NCBI RefSeq assembly: GCF_027531705.1
Contig: NZ_JAPZSP010000010.1
Location: 62,001 to 126,000 of the forward strand
From: Flavobacterium sp.
GTDB taxonomy: Bacteria > Bacteroidota > Bacteroidia > Flavobacteriales > Flavobacteriaceae
Length of the DNA: 64,000 nt
Direction of reading: 5' to 3'
The notes below the pieces were generated by a model. The model saw only the letters and a program-made list of their open reading frames with translations, did not search any database and was not told the origin of the DNA. Every line of letters starts with the position of its first letter. Position 1 is the stretch's first letter. Both the position numbers and the translations under genes were made by a program. Shown in pieces: positions 3,485 to 37,876 of this stretch.

Positions 3485-3558
3485 TAGCGAGAGGGAGATT
3501 TGAACTCCCGACCTCAGGGTTATGAATCCTGCGCTCTAACCGACTGAGCTACCTCGCC
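3485..3558 (-). tRNA. tRNA-Met (CAT anticodon), elongator-type
   Basis: Reverse complement GGCGAGGTAGCTCAGTCGGTTAGAGCGCAGGATTCATAACCCTGAGGTCGGGAGTTCAAATCTCCCTCTCGCTA folds as a cloverleaf with anticodon CAT; CCA is not encoded. Confidence 0.95.
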
Positions 3559-9598: not shown

Positions 9599-9669
9599 AT
9601 TTATTGAAATGTTTTAGATAAAAGAATACGTTTTTGAAATTTTATTTTTTATTCAATGCAAAAACTCAC

Positions 9670-9711
9670 TAGCCCCGATTGCAGCGGCACAAAGTAGAGC
9701 GGAAAGCGGGA
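9670..9711 (+). ncRNA. Candidate structured RNA element, copy 1
   Basis: TAGCCCCGATTGCAGCGGCACAAAGTAGAGCGGAAAGCGGGA; matches copy 2 (37801-37876, minus) with three compensatory pair changes between its two arms. Confidence 0.55.
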
Positions 9712-9744
9712 AAATGGAAACCTAAAATGCCCGAACCATTCGCT

Positions 9745-9788
9745 CCTAAAATTCCTAAATCATAAAATCGTAAATCCTAAATCTAAAA
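9745..9788 (+). repeat. AT-rich degenerate short tandem repeat (TAAATCC/TAAAAT-like)
   Basis: CCTAAAATTCCTAAATCATAAAATCGTAAATCCTAAATCTAAAAT; TAAA recurs at 9747, 9756, 9763, 9771, 9778, 9784. Confidence 0.6.
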
Positions 9789-37800: not shown

Positions 37801-37876
37801 AGCTAATCCAGCTATCCACTCTATCTTTCCTTGTCTAAAGAAGACAAGCAAAGGATGCCGTTGCTATCTGGGCTAG
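37801..37876 (-). ncRNA. Candidate structured RNA element, copy 2, in the 5' region of the metallophosphoesterase gene
   Basis: Reverse complement CTAGCCCAGATAGCAACGGCATCCTTTGCTTGTCTTCTTTAGACAAGGAAAGATAGAGTGGATAGCTGGATTAGCT; inner hairpin CTTTgCTTGTCT/AGACAAGgAAAG; covaries with copy 1. Confidence 0.6.

Follow-up and report, generated by a model that had tools for sequence, protein, structure and literature searches.

Two copies of a catalogued hairpin

Two intergenic elements in a 64,000-nucleotide stretch of a Flavobacterium sp. genome (the window) differ by substitutions that keep their arms paired, which raises the question of what they are: genes for small RNAs, regulatory parts of the neighboring mRNAs, or members of a repeat scattered through the genome. 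A sequence-only reading of the window had placed them at 9670–9711 on the plus strand (CTAGCCCCGATTGCAGCGGCA..GTAGAGCGGAAAGCGGGA) and 37801–37876 on the minus strand (CTAGCCCAGATAGCAACGGCA-hairpin-TAGAGTGGATAGCTGGA), and both are found there, with exactly three substitutions in each arm that pair with each other. Divergent genes flank both copies and each copy points the same way as the gene that follows it; for copy 2 the neighbors are a yfcE-like metallophosphoesterase gene, whose ATG begins 12 nt beyond the element, as had been proposed, and truA diverging on the other side. The window also contains a tRNA gene at 3485–3558 (−) (Rfam RF00005, 67.2 bits).

The same reading had guessed that the pair might belong to the Flavo-1 motif and had suggested an Rfam search, and that guess was right: both copies reach the gathering score of RF01705 (42 bits; Table 1) over all 76 positions of the model, with the same pairs and the same oppositions, and both are ordinary Flavo-1 members. 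Because Rfam already holds it, the window element is known rather than novel, a catalogued hairpin family of unknown function. The pair is also far beyond chance, since both copies reach the gathering score and the genome of origin matches a degenerate 21-mer of the 5′ arm at 32 places but its reversed pattern at 0. Copy 1 extends past 9711, as a member of a subfamily of this genome with a common 5′ flank and 3′ tail.

Table 1 Features of the two Flavo-1 copies in the window.
Feature	Positions	Strand	Remarks
Flavo-1 copy 2, full hairpin, type B, ends AGCTTCTAA	37801..37878	−	between truA and yfcE; RF01705 66.3 bits
5′ arm of copy 2, CTAGCCCAGATAGCAACGGC	37857..37876	−	read directly; pairs with 3′ arm
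3′ arm of copy 2 and conserved end, AGAGTGGATAGCTGGATTAGCT	37801..37821	−	read directly
Central variable hairpin of copy 2	37822..37856	−	sequence and length differ among copies
Flavo-1 copy 1, short form without central hairpin	9667..9717	+	RF01705 42.9 bits
3′ tail of type A subfamily, ATGGAAACCTAAAATGCCCGAACCATTCGCTCCTAA	9714..9749 (about)	+	common to 25 aligned copies of own genome
Shared 5′ flank of type A, TATTCAATGCAAAAACT	9650..9666 (about)	+	seen in type A copies

Flavo-1 came to light through comparative genomics (Weinberg et al. 2010, PMC2864571); that study rated it “y” in small letter as an RNA, not cis-regulatory and not a switch. Rfam types RF01705 as “Gene; sRNA”. In the tally of a review (PMC9029176), which assigns it no function, it ranks with the most abundant sRNA families of Rfam.

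Copy number and architecture

The genome of origin (G000, 3.15 Mb) contains 94 Flavo-1 matches, 82 of them over the cut-off, and its relatives in the genus carry 3 to 89 copies, the richest being G004 with 89; six of eight genomes from other families of the order have none. Copies resemble their own genome-mates: for 81 of 90 and for 44 of 55 copies, the nearest by sequence is another copy of that genome.

Structurally, the copies come in three architectures. Type A combines the common 5′ flank with a 3′ tail ending TTCGCTCCTAA, is represented by 25 aligned copies, all from G000, and includes window copy 1, whereas type B, to which window copy 2 belongs, ends AGCTCCTAA directly 3′ of the hairpin. 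Type C has the layout GCGTTAGGGAT...AGCCCGACC-(second, variable hairpin)-GGnAACGCCC (conserved end also written GGnAACGCCCAAA), in which an outer stem, GCGTT/AACGC, encloses both the Flavo-1 hairpin and the second hairpin; 26 of 61 Flavobacterium genomes match its pattern and none matches the reversed control, and type C was seen at L105 3020–3104, L108, L110, L113, L235, and L303–L332. The Rfam model, by contrast, describes a single hairpin without the type A tail and covers only the inner hairpin of type C. The type C outer stem is invariant, and covariation thus speaks neither for nor against it; complementary ends are confined to this type, those of types A and B not being complementary. 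Some copies carry other repeats within their loops or arms, among them a second repeat of ~50 nt (TACYTCAC..TTTATTTTTTATTTGAGTTCAGTGAAC) inserted in either arm (L126–L142 and others; G000:C43:157560, C51:126326, C53:97367, and C24:3650).

Covariation and the folding strand

The sequence-only reading had taken the three compensatory changes as the mark of a candidate structured RNA. An alignment of 38 copies, drawn from G000 and from G010 (a complete genome within the genus), supports a conserved single-strand hairpin, with those three pairs among the covarying ones. The Rfam-like structure pairs 91.5% of cells versus 79.4% in shuffles, 101 cells are changed on both sides versus 28.3, and the covariation score is 0.378 versus 0.159, a value that none of 500 shuffles reached; sliding one arm along destroyed the signal. 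In the core helix, where purine–purine oppositions interrupt the pairs, 98.7–99.1% of cells are paired even as the pairs themselves vary (U-A/C-G/A-U; A-U/U-A/G-C/C-G; G-C/A-U; U-A/C-G). Single-sequence RNA folds of the window copies are not usefully better than shuffles (z −1.5 and −1.1), so the case rests on covariation. Two further pairings were tried and set aside: one between the 3′ arm and the type A tail, which a fold of 9667–9752 had suggested, has no covariation behind it, and an extra outer stem, CUA/UAG, is 68% paired with no double changes.

Which strand folds can be read from the wobble pairs. Counts that took in G000, G010, and other species give 62 G.U cells to 10 A.C cells (44 to 8 in the central stems, 18 to 2 in the core; joint p 2.7e-10), which shows that the Rfam strand is the one that folds as a single strand, be it as RNA or as DNA. 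The purine–purine oppositions had been put forward as typical of RNA rather than of a DNA site; taken with covariation they show that one strand folds, but they do not separate RNA from single-stranded DNA.

This structural evidence is what speaks for each copy being an independent small RNA with a gene of its own, as the Rfam typing implies and the review repeats: the covariation is strong, the wobble counts are asymmetric between the strands, the oppositions are conserved, and the upstream flank of type A could hold a promoter. That flank, however, was seen in only one subfamily of the genome of origin, and by eye it contains no Bacteroidota-type promoter (TAnnTTTG). Transcript data from F. 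psychrophilum cut both ways, in that Flavo-1 hits coincide with several 5′ transcribed regions, yet overall fall indistinctly sense or antisense, and in many cases outside any transcribed region (PMC9723704). Together with presence that flips between sister species (see below), this makes small RNA genes an unlikely account of the family.

Position and orientation relative to genes

Copies are intergenic: by ORF-plus-codon-usage calls on the surrounding stretches, rather than curated annotation, only 1 of 90 in G000 overlaps a called gene. Divergent genes flank 17 of the 90 copies and convergent genes 14, while in gaps between codirectional genes 46 are antisense and 12 sense with respect to both neighbors (p 8e-6). 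The corresponding counts in G010 are 24 antisense, 15 sense, 11 divergent, and 3 convergent, giving 70 antisense versus 27 sense in codirectional gaps of both genomes together (joint p 1.5e-5). Scores do not separate the two orientations (medians 69.9 bits antisense and 73.4 bits sense, p 0.68). The claim that the element shares the direction of the gene after it therefore stands for the two window copies and fails for the family, where few copies sit between divergent genes and the codirectional gaps lean the other way; likewise, a leader on the strand of the gene it regulates describes these two copies only. Relative to replication, 25 of 55 copies in the complete genome G010 are co-oriented, with no bias overall; the 25 best of them tend to oppose the leading strand (7 of 25, p 0.04), a signal too weak to use.

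A cis-acting leader or intercistronic RNA element should not show such an orientation. As an mRNA element, Flavo-1 would be a leader at yfcE, an intercistronic element at truA-msbA, or a 3′-end element elsewhere, and at these two junctions the placement is suggestive, with copy 2 so close to the yfcE ATG and, in many species, the truA stop codon lying within the element and its end just ahead of msbA. Against this stand the bias opposite to what a sense element needs, antisense copies that are equally intact, inversion at two orthologous junctions, absence of the truA-msbA copy from sister species, and neighbors with no common function that we could see, so that a cis-acting role is distinctly improbable for the family. 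Function from the other strand, as the 3′ UTR or terminator of antisense genes, would fit the closeness of the antisense gene's stop codon, a median of 32 nt away from the 3′ end of Flavo-1; we regard it as very unlikely, since the distance to sense stops is much alike (30 nt), no T-run follows the reverse strand, and the wobble asymmetry points to the Rfam strand as the folding one.

Turnover at shared junctions

Nine intergenic gaps with orthologous flanks on both sides hold a copy in G000 as well as in G010; seven pairs have the same orientation and two are inverted (C5:35105 with 1408575; C51:362283 with 342634). Some shared gaps hold copies with matching arms but unrelated central hairpins, the hairpins being alike within each genome; copies may have been exchanged or re-inserted. 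Even where two species share a junction, pairing is kept through double changes, a sign of selection on the resident copies, unless conversion replaces them.

Two sites were followed more widely, in 80 Flavobacterium loci around yfcE, with states mapped on a 63-species tree. Upstream of yfcE, 17 of 63 species, including the species of origin, have a copy, and the 16 others carry it oriented like window copy 2; two further species, L178 and L216, have eroded copies, and inserts interrupt the element in several others. At the truA-msbA junction a sense copy occurs in 22 species among the yfcE-region loci. On the tree, the yfcE site requires at least 6 to 8 changes and truA-msbA, with a copy in 18 of 63 species, at least 11, counts in which gain and loss are not distinguishable. 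Residue identity over YfcE, TruA, and MsbA is 94.7 to 98.2% between paired species of which one has the truA-msbA copy and the other lacks it, and the genome of origin has an 18-nt gap there without the element. Where the element is present, the TAG of its TAGCCC is the truA stop codon in many species (L149, L151, L182, L189, L224, and others), so that the element defines the TruA C-terminus, and its end lies 8–12 nt ahead of msbA in many species. Gaps without Flavo-1 often hold another repeat, CTATAAGCTGTAGGCAATAAGC..GCCTAAAGCTTAAAG (L165, L188, L206, L212, and others), as if repeats competed for the slot. Because such repeats occupy the truA-msbA gap in species that have no Flavo-1, no clean empty site could be read there; none was found upstream of yfcE either, and no target duplication was found.

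Search for a mobilizing enzyme

The genome of origin encodes two Y1 transposases, one IS200-like and one RAYT-like. The latter (L062 1246–1794, −) is accompanied by three or more REP copies of its own (about 1195–1226, 1801–1843, and 2011–2150), GCTAGCGCGAGCTTCTAGCTCGTGCCCAC, a hairpin of CTAG CGCGAGC TTCTA GCTCGTG. That Flavo-1 is itself the REP of a RAYT transposase, its TAG and hairpin standing for the REP tetranucleotide and hairpin, is invited by the 5′ YTAG followed by a hairpin with mismatches and by the CTAG-hairpin form of the local REP, but is the least probable of the readings considered: the local REP differs in sequence, no Flavo-1 lies at the RAYT locus, 31 Y1 loci from the genus hold one Flavo-1, about as expected by chance, and G004, with its 89 copies, has no Y1 transposase gene. 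RAYT/Y1 transposases were accordingly rejected as movers, and the search found no mobilizing enzyme.

Among plasmids and phages, one match is genuine: Leptospira biflexa replicon p74 carries a well-formed Flavo-1 between two codirectional genes (L302 2499–2562, 57.6 bits). In this copy the first variable position is a G-C pair and the 5′ TAG is missing. Flavo-1 thus occurs on an extrachromosomal replicon in another phylum. A Salmonella phage match is a chance T/A-run, and viral contigs searched with an exact pattern yielded none.

Flavo-1 as a probable dispersed hairpin repeat

Orientation, copy number, and turnover favor a dispersed REP/MITE-like repeat over sRNA genes or cis elements, and the best-supported reading, to which we give a probability of about 0.6, is that Flavo-1 is a dispersed, non-autonomous hairpin repeat of this kind. 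Its likeness to REP/REPIN elements lies in tens of dispersed, intergenic, palindromic copies in either orientation, with a short unpaired tetranucleotide 5′ of the hairpin; its differences are that no association with a RAYT gene, by flanking or otherwise, was found, and that it is unlike the REP of the local RAYT. With MITEs it shares its short, non-coding, multi-copy nature, nested insertions, and presence/absence polymorphism at orthologous sites, and it may differ from them, as neither terminal inverted repeats of a known transposase nor target duplications were seen.

Mechanistically, we posit that Flavo-1 would spread or be exchanged within a genome, that copies would settle in intergenic gaps near stop codons in either orientation and turn over between sister species, and that the Rfam-strand hairpin would be under selection, presumably because it is recognized as single-stranded nucleic acid during copying. 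Both the movement of copies and the folded strand as the recognized form are what we infer; the observations that weigh against a repeat are that no transposition was seen and no transposase is linked. Part of the set is old, because some positions are common to distant species. The strand asymmetry and the pair-keeping changes are the observations that a repeat explains least well, and an RNA role of resident copies is possible.

The new part is the genome-wide picture of Flavo-1, its copy number, orientation, and turnover. A more specific proposal, which we offer tentatively and hold to be somewhat doubtful, is that Flavo-1 is a mobile hairpin repeat of Flavobacteria, copied through its folded single strand by some machinery. 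If so, the Rfam sRNA label would be wrong, and dozens of annotated “sRNA” per Flavobacterium genome would mislead, as would the expression and target predictions built on them, since they would be dispersed mobile hairpins rather than RNA genes.
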